Assembly (NCBI GenBank): GCA_002698785.1 | Contig: PAAG01000014.1 | Location: 124,001-188,000 of the forward strand | DNA: 64,000 nt | Direction of reading: 5' to 3' | Source of the DNA: Verrucomicrobiales bacterium | Lineage (GTDB): Bacteria > Verrucomicrobiota > Verrucomicrobiia > Verrucomicrobiales > DEV007 | In this document: in pieces, positions 758 to 45,952 of the stretch | How positions within the stretch are numbered: position 1 is the first letter of the stretch | How the letters are laid out: every line of letters begins with the position of its first letter | Position numbers and translations under genes: made by a program | Notes under the pieces: generated by a model | What the model was told of the DNA's origin: nothing | Databases searched by the model: none | The model's input: only the letters and a program-made list of their open reading frames with translations

Positions 758-2626
758 ATGGACCCGAATTCACAGACGCCACCACAGGATGAAGCATCAG
801 CCATGCCGGGTGGACCTCCCCCTGACGGCATGGAGATGGGCCCGCCACCAGAAGGTGGCGGAGAAATGGGGCCTCCGCCTTCAGATATGGATCCACGCGA
901 GATGAGGCACTTCTGCTTCAAGATGATTCGCGAAATCACCGGACGTCTCGGTTGGAAGTACAAGCTCTGGATTCCCGGCGCGGTCCTTCTCTCTTCTGTG
1001 TATCTGCTCCCGCCCCGGTTCTTTCAATATTTTACGGAAGGTCTCGATCGACTTTCGGAAACGACTGCACTCGATTTCATCAAGATGCTGGCGATCTTCG
1101 GTATTGGCATCGCGATTTGTCAGTGGATTGCCTTGATCTTTGAAAGCATCATCGGCCAGTGGTTGCGGCTTCGTGTTAGTATCGAATTGCGACAGGACGC
1201 GGTCCAAAGCCTGAATCGCACAAGAATTGACGCTCTGGACTCGGCAAAACGTGGCGACTGGATGACTCGAATGACGGGCGATTTGTTCAACGCGGAGGAA
1301 TTCATGACGACTTCCCTCCCCGATCAGATCACGAACCTGACAATGCTGGTGGGATCAGCAGCTCTATTTTTCTGGTATAGCGGCCCGATCGCTTTTATCC
1401 CGATCCTGGGGGCATTGCTTCTCGCTTGGGTAAACATCATTGTTCAGAAGAAAATGGGCCCGAAACTCGGCTATGCCCGAATGTTGGAAGGCGGAGTCTT
1501 CCAGACGATGATCGAGACGTTCGAGGGCTTGCGTACGATACGTAGCTACGGTGGAGAGAAATTCACCTTCGGACGCATCTCAGAACAGCTCAAAGATGTC
1601 TACAAGACGGGAATGAGCATCACCAAGTCCATGGCTTGGCTCATGGGAACGAATGAGTTCGTAGGCCAGCTTATCGTAACGGGTATTCTCACCCTGGTTG
1701 CTTTTCAGGTTCGCGGAAAAGAACTCACCGCCGCGGATGCGCTAATCTACCCCTTCTACATCAATATGTTCCTGGGGGCGGCAAAAACACTCGTTGGTTC
1801 CGCTTACGATTGGAACCGTTTCTTCTTTGAAGGGGGGCGCCTTGCTTCCCTACTCTACGACAAGGACAAACAGGAATCGGATCACGAAGAGATTTTCGGA
1901 GATTTCAAAAATGAGATCAAAGAGGTGGACTCCTTTCATGTGAAGGATGCCATCATTGCCTATGGAGACAATCCTCCAGTCATTCAGAACCAGGACCTGC
2001 ACCTCAGCAGAGGAGAGATCGTTGCTGTTGTCGGTCCCTCTGGCTGCGGAAAATCTACTATGGTGGAATGCTTTGCCGGACTCCGTCACGCGAACAGTGC
2101 GGAATTCGAGGCCAAGATGAAAGATGGCTCCACTCGCGACCTCACTCTCGCTCCACCATTTCTTTCCGCATTTGTGGAGCAGCAACCCTACCTTTTTGTC
2201 GGGACTATCCGGGATAATATCACCCTCGGTCAGGAACATGTGACCGATGACCACATCTGGGAGAGCCTCGAAGAAGTCGGCCTGACCGAGATCGTTCGCT
2301 CGCGAGGCGGTCTCGACCATGTCCTCGCCGATCGCGGCCGAAATATGAGTGTCGGACAGCAGTATCGTCTCGCACTTTGCCGGGCTCTCGTCTGTGATCG
2401 ACCGTTCCTTTTGATGGACGAACCGTTTGCGGCTCTTGATATCGAGTCGGTCGACAAGGTAATCCAGGCAATGAAAGAAGAGCGCTCCCTCGGAACCGGC
2501 ATCATTCTTATCACACACCTGCTCCCACCAGAGCTCGATGCGAATCGTGTGGTTGAAATGCAACCAGTGCTGCATGAGAACCCTGGCCCTATTCAGCCCG
2601 GGCACACTCCTGGTAACGAACCTTGA
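758..2626 (+). CDS. ABC transporter, fused permease/ATPase (peptide-exporter type)
   Basis: TM segments, Walker A VGPSGCGKST, signature MSVGQQYRLALCRAL, Walker B LLMDEP. Start moved to ATG 758 (MDPNSQTPPQDEASAMPGGPPPDG); Pro/Gly-rich N-terminus. Confidence 0.85.
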   Translation: MDPNSQTPPQDEASAMPGGPPPDGMEMGPPPEGGGEMGPPPSDMDPREMRHFCFKMIREITGRLGWKYKLWIPGAVLLSSVYLLPPRFFQYFTEGLDRLSETTALDFIKMLAIFGIGIAICQWIALIFESIIGQWLRLRVSIELRQDAVQSLNRTRIDALDSAKRGDWMTRMTGDLFNAEEFMTTSLPDQITNLTMLVGSAALFFWYSGPIAFIPILGALLLAWVNIIVQKKMGPKLGYARMLEGGVFQTMIETFEGLRTIRSYGGEKFTFGRISEQLKDVYKTGMSITKSMAWLMGTNEFVGQLIVTGILTLVAFQVRGKELTAADALIYPFYINMFLGAAKTLVGSAYDWNRFFFEGGRLASLLYDKDKQESDHEEIFGDFKNEIKEVDSFHVKDAIIAYGDNPPVIQNQDLHLSRGEIVAVVGPSGCGKSTMVECFAGLRHANSAEFEAKMKDGSTRDLTLAPPFLSAFVEQQPYLFVGTIRDNITLGQEHVTDDHIWESLEEVGLTEIVRSRGGLDHVLADRGRNMSVGQQYRLALCRALVCDRPFLLMDEPFAALDIESVDKVIQAMKEERSLGTGIILITHLLPPELDANRVVEMQPVLHENPGPIQPGHTPGNEP

Positions 2627-3983
2627 TCTTCGCCCGAGCGATATTCGGATACATACGCTCGAATTCAAAATGAGCATCGAGAACACGGGCAATTCTCCGG
2701 CAGATAGTGAGCCCTAGGCCAAGGTGCCTCTCTGCCAATTCCGTAGTCGGGTTTCGCGCAGAATCGGGAATGCTATCGTCGTAAAGCTCACCGATGGGGC
2801 CATTGTCGACGACAAACTCGATATATCCATCTCTCGCAAAAGACGCAGTCGCTTCAATCTTCCCGGAAGGGAGAGTATATTCCACCGCATTGTCGAACAG
2901 ATTTCGGAGGACAATGTTCAGAAATTGCACTGGCAACATCATTTCATGTTCCGTACGCCCTGTAGATACCCAGAATTCGATATCCTTCCCCTCTGCCGCG
3001 TCAAAGAACGTGGCCCAGTTCTTCGCAAGCAAGCGCCCCGGAGTCGCCTTTTCCATATTCAGGACCTGACCGCCAGCTTCCACCTTAGAGAGGATCAGTA
3101 AGTTTTCGACCAACCTCTCCATTCGAGATTCGATCACGAGGATCTCTCTCATCCCCTTATCCTCAAGGGAACCTTCGGCAATACTTCGTATGCCCGCGAG
3201 CGGAGTACGAAGCTCGTGCGCTGCGAGCGAAGAGAAACGTCGTTCATTCTTAATGCTCTCGTCGACTCGATTCATGAGGAGGTTCAGGCGCTGGACGACT
3301 CGCTCAATCTCAGACGGAGCGTTTTCCACTGTGAACAAATGATCGCCATAGGGATCAGCCGTGGCGATTTGACGAGAGAGAGAATTCAAAGGTCTCAGAT
3401 TAATTCGAAGAACAATCCAGATCGCGACGGCCAGCCCCAATAGAATAAGGAATCCCATTTCGATCATTCGCTTGCGAATCCCCGCAGCATTCTCGTGCAT
3501 CCCGAGCAGATGATGGCCTACTGCGAGATAGACATTTTCCGATGGGGTGCCTGGATCCATATCGATTTTCCGAACCAGAAATCGTACTCGCTCGCCAGAT
3601 TCAGTAGAAACATTCAGTATCTCGTCCGTCTCCCGCATACTACCGGGAAAATCCAGATCCAGATTCTCAAAGCTTGCGGACTTCAACACATCTTTCCGGA
3701 CCTCTACATTTCGCAGCCAAATGAACTCCGGGGATGAGGGATCGTAAATACGATCAAAATAGTCCTCATTCATTTTAGGGGTGAGTTCCCCATTCTCCCA
3801 TTCACACGCCGCCTCAATGATCCGAGCCTTGTCTCTCAGAGCATGGTCAAATTGTTCCTCCAAATGGGAATAGAACTGAAAGTACAGAACGAAACCTGAG
3901 ACGATCAGAGCAAACCCGATGACCACAAGGAGCCCTGAAATGAGCCGGACATGGATAGAATGTAAGGTTCGCCAGCGTTTCAT
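2589..3983 (-). CDS. Two-component sensor histidine kinase
   Basis: Two TM segments, H-box AAHELRTPLAGIRS, N-box NLFDNAVEYT, G-box HLGLGLTICRRIA. Confidence 0.93.
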   Translation of the reverse strand: MKRWRTLHSIHVRLISGLLVVIGFALIVSGFVLYFQFYSHLEEQFDHALRDKARIIEAACEWENGELTPKMNEDYFDRIYDPSSPEFIWLRNVEVRKDVLKSASFENLDLDFPGSMRETDEILNVSTESGERVRFLVRKIDMDPGTPSENVYLAVGHHLLGMHENAAGIRKRMIEMGFLILLGLAVAIWIVLRINLRPLNSLSRQIATADPYGDHLFTVENAPSEIERVVQRLNLLMNRVDESIKNERRFSSLAAHELRTPLAGIRSIAEGSLEDKGMREILVIESRMERLVENLLILSKVEAGGQVLNMEKATPGRLLAKNWATFFDAAEGKDIEFWVSTGRTEHEMMLPVQFLNIVLRNLFDNAVEYTLPSGKIEATASFARDGYIEFVVDNGPIGELYDDSIPDSARNPTTELAERHLGLGLTICRRIARVLDAHFEFERMYPNIARAKIKVRYQECARAE

Positions 3984-3994
3984 GTACAGCGGCC

Positions 3995-4681
3995 CTATTC
4001 ACTGGGATCGCGTGACGCAAGAGAATACCCCAGCCCCCGACAGGTATGAAGTAGCGGCTTCGCCCCCGGGCGATCAATCTTTTTCCGTAAACGAGACATG
4101 ATCACCGTCACCACATTGGAGGCAGCACCTTGCTCTTCGGTTTCATAAACTTCTTCCCAGATTTCCGAGCGACGCACGATTCTGCCTTTTCGATACGCAA
4201 GAAATTCCAGCAGAGCGAACTCCTTCGCGGTGAGGTTCAAATTGCGCCCCGACCTTCGAGCCACCCCTCCGGTCACATCTACTTCCAGATCGTCCACCTC
4301 GACGATGGATGACTTCGTATCGAATCTCCGCCGAACGAGCGCCCTGACCCGGGCCGCGGCCTCCTCTATGGCGAAAGGTTTTACCAGATAGTCATCTGCG
4401 CCCATATCGAGCCCCGTCACCCGATCATTCACATCGTCTCTCGCCGTGATAATCATGACCGCAGAATCCAGTTTCTCGTTTCGTATCGTCTTGAGGATTT
4501 CGAACCCCGAAGTGTCTGGCAGCATCAGATCAAGGATGATCACCGCATACTCGCTCACAAAAATTTGATCGAGAGCCTCGGATCCATCCACCGCAACATC
4601 TACGAAATACCCGTCTTCCACGAGACGGTCCTTCAAGGCCACACGAACTGGCCCATAGTCTTCCACCACTAAAATCTTCAT
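3995..4681 (-). CDS. OmpR-family response regulator
   Basis: Receiver MKILVVEDYGPVRVALKDRL...VIILDLMLPDTSG, winged-helix C-terminus; adjacent to the kinase. Confidence 0.95.
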   Translation of the reverse strand: MKILVVEDYGPVRVALKDRLVEDGYFVDVAVDGSEALDQIFVSEYAVIILDLMLPDTSGFEILKTIRNEKLDSAVMIITARDDVNDRVTGLDMGADDYLVKPFAIEEAAARVRALVRRRFDTKSSIVEVDDLEVDVTGGVARRSGRNLNLTAKEFALLEFLAYRKGRIVRRSEIWEEVYETEEQGAASNVVTVIMSRLRKKIDRPGAKPLLHTCRGLGYSLASRDPSE

Positions 4682-4780
4682 ACGCTATTTAGTTCGAGGA
4701 GGTGGCTTGGCGAAGAAATATAGCAGAAATTATGAAGATTGTAACATTCCATTCACATTTTCCGGCTACTGTCAAATTAA

Positions 4781-5045
4781 CCACGAGGAAATCCCCTTAT
4801 CTTTGTGGACATAAAATTTACCTTCTCAACTACGAATAAAGCGTTGGCCCAACTCGTAGAAACATTGCTGGGGGTTCTGCTCCCAGCGATGTTCTGGGGA
4901 CGCAACCGAGGAATCAGAAGCGTTACCAGAGTAGACATATCCTTACTCTCGCAATCAAGGAGACTTGCGAGTTAAGGCAAACGCAAGATGGAATTTGTTC
5001 TTGATCGGTAGCCGGACTCTTGAAATACAGAGTCCGGCTTTTTTT
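4781..5045 (+). ncRNA. Candidate structured RNA: six consecutive helices ending in an intrinsic terminator
   Basis: Helices at 4781-4808, 4830-4859, 4862-4892, 4893-4930, 4941-4977 and 5010-5039, followed by 7 T. G-U wobbles in three helices would be A-C mismatches on the other strand. Confidence 0.5.
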
Positions 5046-5677
5046 ACGGCCTCGTCAATCCAGGACACCGTCTCAGGGAAATCGGCCGCACGAATATGTG
5101 TGTCGATCATATCGTATTCGGCTTTGGTGATTTTTTTCCAGTCTTCGGCTATCCATTCAAGATATTGATCAATGGACTCTTCCCGTTCCATCGATTCCAG
5201 CAGGAACACATCGAAAAAATAGAAGATTCCGTCCTGTTTCAATAATCTGCCGATTTCGCCGAGAAAAGCCTCTTTTTCCTCCCGCGAAAGATGATGCGCG
5301 GTGAAACCGGCAAAAACGGTATCAAACTTCTCTCGGTCCAACTGCGAAAGATCACGAAGATCTGCCGTGATCCACCTCGATTCAACCGTGTCCCAAATCG
5401 GCCTCTTCGCAGCCTCCTCCAGAGCTTTTCCTGACGAATCTACTCCAGTAAAACTGACGCATCCGAACTGCTCCACGATTTGGCTGGGCACTTCCGCATC
5501 GCCACAGCCTAAATCCAGCACTCTCCCCATAGGCTTTCCACCGGCAGTTTTCACCCAATGGTTGGAAAACGCCTCAACGATTTCCTCGTGATCCATGTAG
5601 TTGGACTCGATTACCTTGCGGTACAACCGCCAATGCTGGTCGAAAATCACATCGACCTGCCCGCCTGACTCAGCCAT
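4955..5677 (-). CDS. Class I SAM-dependent methyltransferase
   Basis: Motif I VLDLGCGDAEVPSQI; FTGVDSSGKALEEA. Confidence 0.88.
   Translation of the reverse strand: MAESGGQVDVIFDQHWRLYRKVIESNYMDHEEIVEAFSNHWVKTAGGKPMGRVLDLGCGDAEVPSQIVEQFGCVSFTGVDSSGKALEEAAKRPIWDTVESRWITADLRDLSQLDREKFDTVFAGFTAHHLSREEKEAFLGEIGRLLKQDGIFYFFDVFLLESMEREESIDQYLEWIAEDWKKITKAEYDMIDTHIRAADFPETVSWIDEAVKKAGLCISRVRLPIKNKFHLAFALTRKSP
5010..5045 (+). terminator. Intrinsic terminator
   Basis: AGCCGGACTCT-TGAAATAC-AGAGTCCGGCT then TTTTTT: 11-bp perfect stem; lies inside the 3' part of the opposite-strand methyltransferase CDS. Confidence 0.75.
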
Positions 5678-21810: not shown

Positions 21811-22272
21811 ATGAGCGAATCCCCGAATCAGGAAATCATCGAAAACTTGAAGATCGCATACGCGATGGAACTCGAAACTGTGCAGAACTACATCGCTGCT
21901 TCCATAAATCTGGACGGTGTTCGATCTGAAGTTATCAAGAAGTCACTCGAAGCGGACGTAGCCGAAGAACTTACCCATGCGCAGACGCTGGCGAATCGAA
22001 TCAAGACTATCGGAGGCACTGTTCCAGGAAGTTTTGATCTGGCAAAATCACAAGAATCTCTTCAACCACTCGCCGACACGACAGACGTCGTGGGTGTAAT
22101 AAAAGGAGTCATCGAAGCCGAGAACGGTGCCATTGCCCAATACAACAAAATCATCAAGATTTGCGACGGCGTTGATTATGTAACGCAGGACATGGCTATC
22201 GGGCTTCTTTCTGGCGAGGAAGACCACCGGAGAGAATTCATCGGATTTCTGAAGGAATACGAAAAAGGTTAA
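21811..22272 (+). CDS. Ferritin-like/bacterioferritin-type protein
   Basis: LKIAYAMELETVQNYIAASINLDG...EELTHAQTLANRI...EENGAIAQYNKI...GEEDHRREFIGFL Glu/His pattern. Confidence 0.82.
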   Translation: MSESPNQEIIENLKIAYAMELETVQNYIAASINLDGVRSEVIKKSLEADVAEELTHAQTLANRIKTIGGTVPGSFDLAKSQESLQPLADTTDVVGVIKGVIEAENGAIAQYNKIIKICDGVDYVTQDMAIGLLSGEEDHRREFIGFLKEYEKG

Positions 22273-22426
22273 TCGAGCGAGAGCCCTCTCGGCTTACTCC
22301 TTTTACCGTTGCGAGCAGGATTTTACCAATTCGCTCGCTCTCTGGTCCGTGATTCGATACAACGATCACGTGTATTGGCATGCCCTCAAACTTGGGGCAA
22401 GCTCAATACGCGCTACATTTTTTCGT

Positions 22427-23443
22427 ATGAAATCCCCCTTTCTACTGGCCCTCTCGGGTCTGCTGGCTCTTGTCACTTCGCCGCTTCTAGCTGAAACGGA
22501 GCCTCTCCTCAAATCCGGAGACAAGGTAGTCATCGTCGGCAATACGATTATTGAACGTGCCCGTCTCAGCGGCCATTTGGAAACGGCACTGCAATTGGCG
22601 GCTGGTCCCGAGGTGGAGGATCTGTCCTTTCGCAACCTGGGTTGGAGTGGCGACAGCGTTTTCGGAGACTCACGTTCTTACTTTGGCACTCCCGAAGAGG
22701 GAAGAACCCGTCTCAGTCAGAACCTCACCGATTTGAAGCCGACTGTAGCGCTTCTCTGCTATGGCACAGGGGCAGCAATGTCTGTCGAGAGCGGATGGAC
22801 AAATGAGAAAAGTGCAGCAAAGACTTCGGGCGCAGGAATGGAAGAGAGCCTGAAGTTGTTCACGGAAGCTTATCAGGAGCTTATTGAGCGTGTTCGCACG
22901 GCATCCGGCCCTCAGCTTCGTGAAATTGTCCTCATCTCTCCGCCGCCTTTGGAAAACCTTCCAGCTCCCCTGCCTGACCAGACCGAGAACAACAAACGGT
23001 TGGCCCAGTTTCGCGATGCGATCAGGGACATCGCAGTGAAGGACAATCTGCGATTTGTTGACCTTTTCAACGCCCTCGGCGGTGATGATTTCTCTGGCGA
23101 AATTGCATCTCCTGCTCTCACGACAAATGGAGTTCACTACAGCGAGACCGGATATCAGATCCTGGCCAAAGCCTTGGTGGAAGAGCTGGGGTATCCGGAG
23201 TCTGCCTCGCCAAGCTCAGACAGCCCTTCCGTCGCCAAGCTCCGATCAGAAATCATTGAGAAAAACAGACTCTTTTTCCATCGCTGGCGACCCGCAAACG
23301 AAACTTACCTCTTTCTTTTCCGAAAGCATGAGCAGGGACAAAACGCCAAGGAAATTCCCATGTTCGATCCCCTGATCGAGGAACAGGAAAAGAGTATCGA
23401 AAAGGCCAAAGAACTCGTTTTCTCTGAGAGTGCCAAGCAGTAG
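22427..23443 (+). CDS. SGNH/GDSL-like hydrolase, secreted
   Basis: Signal peptide from ATG 22427; LKSGDKVVIVGNTIIERARLSGHLE...TTNGVHYSETGYQILA (catalytic H block). Confidence 0.85.
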   Translation: MKSPFLLALSGLLALVTSPLLAETEPLLKSGDKVVIVGNTIIERARLSGHLETALQLAAGPEVEDLSFRNLGWSGDSVFGDSRSYFGTPEEGRTRLSQNLTDLKPTVALLCYGTGAAMSVESGWTNEKSAAKTSGAGMEESLKLFTEAYQELIERVRTASGPQLREIVLISPPPLENLPAPLPDQTENNKRLAQFRDAIRDIAVKDNLRFVDLFNALGGDDFSGEIASPALTTNGVHYSETGYQILAKALVEELGYPESASPSSDSPSVAKLRSEIIEKNRLFFHRWRPANETYLFLFRKHEQGQNAKEIPMFDPLIEEQEKSIEKAKELVFSESAKQ

Positions 23444-44402: not shown

Positions 44403-44993
44403 TTATAATCCTTTTTCAGCAAGAACAGTGGATTCGTGAATGAGGTTCTTTCGCAATCCTAGTGGCAGGCTCGAAATTTCTACTTCCGCCGACCCTCCGG
44501 AATGGGTAATGGAAACAGTCTCGTCTGCCACACCGGTAATTGTCACATCGGTGTAAGTCTCGCCAGCGATCGTTTGAACTTCCTTCAACCTGACGCCTTC
44601 AAATGACTTTCGAGTAGCGGCTTTCCACTGACCCAGTGCGCTTGCGGTGCTTTCACTCAACTTCTGGGCATTAGACAGGTAAGTCCTCACCTCTTCCAAC
44701 TCTTTCAGAGCCGCCAACTCCTCCTGTTTGATCTCATCAGACGATTCCTGACTCTTTTCGATTTTCTTGATCTCAGACTCAAGAGCTCGCTTCTCCTTGA
44801 GATAGTCACTCCAGCTCATCTCTTGTTCCTCGCCCCCGCCACCGCTACTGGTGGTTTCTTTTTTCTCCTTCGGCTCACTTGGAGCCTCTGGTGCCTCATC
44901 ATCACCGCCTCCCTGATCCAGACAACCAGAGAGAAGAAAGGTAGTGCAAATCACTACAATACTATATCGGAAGAGCCCTCGATCCATTTTCAT
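44403..44993 (-). CDS. Coiled-coil lipoprotein with the same C-terminal motif type
   Basis: Lipobox LLSGC; AGETYTDVTITGVADETVSITHSGGSAEVEISSLPLGLRKNL. Track start 45281 would run antisense through the tRNA, so the start is moved. Confidence 0.78.
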   Translation of the reverse strand: MKMDRGLFRYSIVVICTTFLLSGCLDQGGGDDEAPEAPSEPKEKKETTSSGGGGEEQEMSWSDYLKEKRALESEIKKIEKSQESSDEIKQEELAALKELEEVRTYLSNAQKLSESTASALGQWKAATRKSFEGVRLKEVQTIAGETYTDVTITGVADETVSITHSGGSAEVEISSLPLGLRKNLIHESTVLAEKGL

Positions 44994-45142
44994 ATGTATC
45001 AAATTGGATACGCAGGGGTGAAATTCAAGGAGATATACGAATCTTTTACGTTGCCCTGTTTGACAACACGCCCTGCAAAACAGGGTCGTTTCCTTCTTGA
45101 TTTCCTCCGAAGCCCAATTAGACTCTGCGCTCGCCCAAAAAA

Positions 45143-45224
45143 GCCGGTGTGGCGGAATTGGTAGACGCGCGCGATTCAAAATCGCGTTCCTTCGGGAGTG
45201 CGGGTTCGATTCCCGCCGCCGGTA
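45143..45224 (+). tRNA. tRNA-Leu(CAA)
   Basis: GCCGGTGTGGCGGAATTGGTAGACGCGCGCGATTCAAAATCGCG...GCGGGTTCGATTCCCGCCGCCGGTA; cloverleaf with long variable arm, anticodon CAA, no encoded CCA. Confidence 0.95.
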
Positions 45225-45268
45225 TTTGAGGGCTTGAGGTTCAAAACAAGAGAAGTCGCTGCTTTCTC

Positions 45269-45952
45269 TCAGCCTTGGCAAAGGTGATCGATATCGGTTA
45301 GCTTTCCAAAAACGATCAGGTAATCCCCCTCTTTCAGCAGAGTATCCGGCCCCGGGGTGCCCACCACCTTCGATCCCTTCTCCGGGATCTCCGACTCCTC
45401 TTCGCTCCTGGGTGCCTTGCGGATCGTAATTAGGTTCAGGCGATACTTCTTTCGAAGCTTCGCCTCTTCCACCGTCTGGCCGACCATGAAATCCGGGACC
45501 GCCATTTCTACAATTCCGTGCTCTGCATCGAGACCAAAATAGCGGCGCACAGCCTCATTGGATAACTGCCTGGAAAAATAGGCTGCAGCCATTGTCTCAG
45601 CGCGAATTTTCCCGGAAACTTTCATCAAATCCAGGAGGCGGGCGTGCACGTCGTTGATTACACGGGTATACACGTTTTTTACGCCAAGGTCCTGACAATG
45701 CGCGGTAATGACGAGACTCGCCTCAAATGCCTCTCCGATAGCCACGATTGCCGTATCCACCTGACCAACTCCGATCTGCTCCAGTGCCTCAAGTTCCGTG
45801 CCATCCGCTTCGACGGCGAGAACGCTCAATTCCTGAAGGTCTTTCAAATGGGTGGAATCATTGTCGACAGCAATAACTTCGTGTCCTGACTCTGCCAGCT
45901 CCCTGCACAGGGAAGCTCCAAAATATCCAAGTCCAATCACAGCAAATTTCAT
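45269..45952 (-). CDS. TrkA/KtrA-type potassium transport regulatory subunit
   Basis: MKFAVIGLGYFGASLCRELAESGHEVIAVDNDS RCK-N domain plus TrkA-C. Confidence 0.93.
   Translation of the reverse strand: MKFAVIGLGYFGASLCRELAESGHEVIAVDNDSTHLKDLQELSVLAVEADGTELEALEQIGVGQVDTAIVAIGEAFEASLVITAHCQDLGVKNVYTRVINDVHARLLDLMKVSGKIRAETMAAAYFSRQLSNEAVRRYFGLDAEHGIVEMAVPDFMVGQTVEEAKLRKKYRLNLITIRKAPRSEEESEIPEKGSKVVGTPGPDTLLKEGDYLIVFGKLTDIDHLCQG

Follow-up and report, generated by a model that had tools for sequence, protein, structure and literature searches.

A structured element at positions 4770 to 5060 of the 64-kb window (the whole stretch of DNA analysed here, 64,000 nucleotides) is real, statistically outstanding and well beyond chance, as follows both from its rank in a folding scan and from the statistics of the terminator at its 3′ end. 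We put roughly even chances on its encoding an independent, intrinsically terminated + strand RNA of ~265 nt that would most likely act in trans as a regulator, under the neighbouring two-component system. As for its kind, the candidate is most likely a species-restricted small RNA, previously undescribed but of a sort already known. The genes and structural features concerned are the following:

2589..3983, - strand: sensor histidine kinase gene (Pfam HisKA, HATPase_c), after the regulator gene
3995..4681, - strand: OmpR/PhoB-type response regulator gene (Pfam Response_reg, Trans_reg_C), divergent from the candidate RNA
4682..4781, no strand: AT-rich intergenic stretch between the response regulator and the candidate RNA
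4780..5046, + strand: candidate small RNA of ~265 nt, its predicted ends lying shortly upstream of P1 and at the last T of the T-tract
4782..4809, + strand: hairpin P1, CCACGAGGA/TCTTTGTGG with two G-U pairs; -10.4 kcal/mol on +, -6.4 on -
4830..4859, + strand: hairpin P2, CTACGA/TCGTAG with a possible inner GTTG/CAAC; -8.5 on +, -12.7 on -
4862..4892, + strand: hairpin P3, 14 pairs, three of them G-U, and a TCT loop; -22.1 on +, -13.3 on -
4893..4930, + strand: hairpin P4, TCTGG-ACGC/GCGT-CCAGA, with a purine-rich loop that includes GAGGAA; -15.1 on +, -18.2 on -
4941..4977, + strand: hairpin P5, CCTTA-CTCGCAA/TTGCGAG-TAAGG, spanning the stop codon of the methyltransferase gene on the opposite strand; -14.7 on +, -15.3 on -
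5010..5046, + strand: intrinsic terminator P6, a perfect 11-bp stem with an 8-nt loop and a T-tract
4955..5677, - strand: class I methyltransferase gene (Pfam Methyltransf_25)

Folding and termination of the element

When the + strand of the window was scanned in 709 overlapping 270-base segments, with short-range pairs only, segment 4771-5040 ranked first at 37.6 kcal/mol below its shuffles, the runner-up independent region lying at 21.4 kcal/mol below and the SD across all segments being 6.5. The 291 bases from 4770 to 5060 fold with -100.5 kcal/mol on the + strand (z -5.38 against dinucleotide shuffles) and with -101.0 kcal/mol on the - strand (z -5.37), and none of 200 shuffles matched this stability on either strand. 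The comparison with shuffled sequence, which the preliminary description of this DNA had named as a possible refutation, thus came out far in favour of the native sequence (z -5.4), and compact folding beyond chance, as is expected of a small RNA, is found at 4770-5060. The runner-up of the scan, and thus the second strongest of its independent folding signals, is at 22141-22500, just upstream of the start of an ORF at 22349 or overlapping it.

All six helices of the preliminary description were found as written, between 4782 and 5039. They are present as consecutive local helices, but for P2 and P5 there is a better long-range alternative: the minimum-energy fold of the + strand retains P1, P3, P4 and P6, while P2 and P5 are absent from it and their arms enter long-range pairs, connecting ~4820-4858 with ~4969-5009. 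In particular, the 3′ arm of P5 can pair with the 3′ arm of P2 instead (inverted repeat 4844-4856/4968-4980). With -99.9 kcal/mol for the minimum-energy fold against -95.0 kcal/mol for the all-local fold, the two forms differ by 4.9 kcal/mol, which is less than the error of such predictions. It is conceivable, though rather improbable, that the element represents a very narrowly distributed and hitherto unknown class of structured RNA which would switch between tandem hairpins (P2 and P5) and a rod, controlled by the adjacent two-component system, a ligand or a protein and with its terminator in the opposing gene.

The intrinsic terminator claimed previously, P6 with its T-tract, was confirmed, and it is the only strong one in the window: no other perfect stem with 8 pairs or more is followed by 6 or more T, on the + or the - strand. 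In shuffled sequence, 0.05 such terminators are expected per 64 kb, and a stem of at least 11 pairs occurred in none of 60 shuffles. An intrinsic terminator at the 3′ end, a further mark of small RNAs, is therefore at hand. As a more general observation, with one site in 64 kb, strong intrinsic terminators as defined by these thresholds are almost entirely missing here, and this suggests that the organism relies mostly on other means of termination.

Strand and gene context

Because there is no difference in folding between the strands (z -5.4 each, as revealed by the folding of both strands that had been named as a check), the assignment to the + strand rests on the U-tract and not on wobble pairs. 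It had been argued that G-U wobbles in P1, P3 and P4 mark the + strand. Two such pairs in P1 and three in P3 are indeed there, but of the several supposed for P4 only one is possible, beside a G-A mismatch. The argument is also weak in that the + strand gives the more stable P1 and P3 but the - strand the more stable P2 and P4, with P5 and P6 similar between strands and the energies of the whole region equal. What does favour the + strand is the single U-tract, of which there is none on the - strand, together with the layout: on the + strand the five hairpins lead straight into the terminator as a single unit, whereas read on the - strand this unit would start within coding sequence and then cross its stop codon.

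Equal folding energy and z-score on the - strand, the greater stability there of P2 and P4, and the location of both flanking genes on that strand are all in line with a function on the - strand, where the element would serve as 3′ UTR in the mRNA for the methyltransferase, or as a spacer ahead of the regulator gene, and would stabilise the message or separate the genes. However, the U-tract is missing on the - strand, P6 would fall inside coding sequence and P5 would span the stop codon, and the regulator has a promoter-like site of its own downstream of the hairpins; we consider such a function unlikely.

In its 3′ third, the candidate RNA overlaps the 3′ coding end of the methyltransferase gene in antisense by ~90 nt, with P6 in the last coding stretch of this - strand gene. 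The coding end is probably genuine, since the methyltransferase has 36% identity to a same-genus protein (in L083) with which it can be aligned up to the C-terminus. A perfect antisense overlap of ~90 nt and a terminator inside coding sequence could also point to a cis-antisense RNA or transcription barrier that acts mainly on the methyltransferase via the 3′ overlap with its mRNA, the upstream hairpins merely stabilising the RNA. For this, however, the five additional hairpins outside the overlap would be unnecessary, and sense-antisense overlaps at convergent 3′ ends are common and often without effect, which also counts against this explanation; we give it little weight. Elsewhere in the window, a tRNA gene on the + strand (45143-45224; Rfam, 57 bits) lies antisense to a predicted 292-aa ORF (44403-45281, - strand), the extended start of which is therefore doubtful.

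With regard to coding potential, none of the small ORFs across the candidate RNA matched a Pfam family, in agreement with the lack of a coding function that characterises small RNAs. Downstream, there are no + strand genes of note until ~7790, i.e. for ~2.7 kb, but only antisense-type ORFs, and the candidate RNA is therefore not a leader. The previous statement that no + strand CDS follows and that the element does not look like a cis-regulatory leader was hence borne out, and a riboswitch or attenuator leader was rejected, as there is no same-strand regulated gene downstream.

Relatives and known RNA classes

Comparison of the candidate RNA with the Rfam covariance models gave no match at gathering score, and at permissive thresholds (E up to 5) only two chance-level matches to eukaryotic families (E ~4). 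The Infernal search against Rfam that had been recommended thus returned no known family, and the view that the element is none of tmRNA, RNase P and SRP RNA stands, as no Rfam family fits. Searches by blastn of three overlapping sets (57 relatives, 387 genomes from the order and 388 from the phylum) yielded neither a homologue nor a second copy, and plasmids and phages gave no match. Apart from the element itself, which is single copy in its own genome, seven matches of 20-30 bases were obtained in the phylum, limited to the terminator stem and T-tract and taken as generic terminators. A covariance model of P2 to P5, built from the single sequence, was run on the genus (34 genomes) and on the family (75 genomes), with no homologue accepted in either. 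Its two weak hits were considered chance: one of 13 bits in the same genus (L088) is inside a 375-aa ORF and has a fold z of +0.5, and one of 18 bits in the same family (L108) overlaps the end of a 304-aa ORF, with the helices mostly broken.

The gene neighbourhood gave no relatives either. A query with the response regulator against genome contigs recovered general relatives only, and at 16 further two-component loci, found via the histidine kinase and with a regulator identity of 47-56%, there was no matching RNA upstream of the regulator. The nearest same-genus copy of the methyltransferase gene (that in L083) is directly followed by a convergent gene, leaving no room for an RNA. As no homologue was found in the collections searched, there is also no sign of selection on the candidate RNA beyond the fold itself.

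Since no relatives were found, this isolation would argue against a housekeeping RNA: the candidate does not occur elsewhere in the genus (34 genomes searched), unlike a housekeeping RNA such as 6S RNA. The latter has in common with the candidate the form of a terminated RNA and a long-range rod, which for the candidate appears in the minimum-energy fold, but the candidate has no match in Rfam, even with E up to 5, and the interior of its rod is branched. In itself, the isolation is not unusual, because a survey of 26 bacterial genomes reported that, of the intergenic regions resembling those that bear ncRNAs, a large portion are without relatives, sometimes even among close species, although some of these regions may be junk (PMC8632094). 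Like the lineage-restricted RNAs from this GC-IGR search, the candidate is long, structured and intergenic, and has no relative in either sequence or structure; candidates there were, however, promoted only with several representatives, whereas here there is one (PMC8632094).

The restriction to one genome and the strong fold on both strands might alternatively be explained by the lack of any RNA function, the element being a relic of a mobile element rich in inverted repeats or a cluster of hairpins at the DNA level. On the other hand, it is single copy and without a repeat family, matches no plasmid or phage and carries a canonical terminator at one end, so that we regard this explanation as improbable.

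Partners and regulation of the candidate RNA

Hfq was not detected in the organism's own genome (G000, 96% complete), with positive controls, and a classical Hfq-dependent small RNA is therefore unlikely. Likewise, CsrA was found in none of 18 genomes (the own genome and 17 relatives), while control genomes were positive. These findings weaken the two best-known protein partnerships for the candidate RNA. The candidate does share tandem hairpins, GGA-containing loops and a terminator with CsrB/RsmZ, and GGA motifs are located in or beside three hairpin loops (GAGGAA in P4, AAGGAG in P5 and GAGGA beside the P1 loop), as would befit a decoy of this type titrating a CsrA-like protein with its loops. 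However, with no CsrA in host or relatives and no match in Rfam, such a decoy is disfavoured and very improbable. As for mRNA partners, the best duplexes with the 39 translation starts of the window were within, or ~1.7 sd of, the best-of-39 values of shuffled sequence, so that none was convincingly better than the controls, and in this search the response regulator was not a good target.

In E. coli, several small RNAs are encoded divergently from a transcription regulator, as in OxyS/oxyR, GcvB/gcvA and SgrS/sgrR. The candidate resembles these systems in that it would be a short RNA from an intergenic region, with an intrinsic terminator and a divergent regulator, its 5′ end lying ~100 bp from the response regulator gene. 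It differs from them in that no homologue was found, Hfq was not detected and transcription is predicted from the sequence, and also in the regulator, which is a two-component response regulator here and of the LysR or SgrR type in E. coli. As the regulator gene is divergent from the candidate small RNA in the same way as in OxyS/OxyR and GcvB/GcvA, the neighbouring response regulator possibly controls it.

For the trans-acting RNA that we favour, the predicted start of transcription is near 4780, within the intergenic stretch that it has in common with the divergent regulator and kinase genes, and transcription would end at P6, inside the opposing methyltransferase gene; unpaired linkers and loops might then contact mRNAs or a protein. 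If transcribed, it would be an RNA gene invisible to homology-based annotation, in a bacterium whose genome yielded neither Hfq nor CsrA, and the adjoining two-component system would offer a direct route to testing its regulation. It would also show that a folding scan of one genome, combined with terminator statistics, can single out orphan RNA genes in lineages that have been little studied.

In the intergenic stretch (4682..4781), a search for sigma-70-type sites found no good + strand promoter for the candidate RNA. On the - strand, one promoter-like site for the response regulator was found at 4745-4717, where 0.8 are expected in shuffles. Direct repeats for the response regulator (ACATT spaced by 11, at 4744-4764) were judged a guess no better than chance. 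Finally, a 13-nt inverted repeat (4670-4682/4731-4743, 92% complementary), which may be due to chance, pairs the start of the regulator gene (TATGAAGATTTTA) with a site at the upstream hexamer of its promoter-like site.
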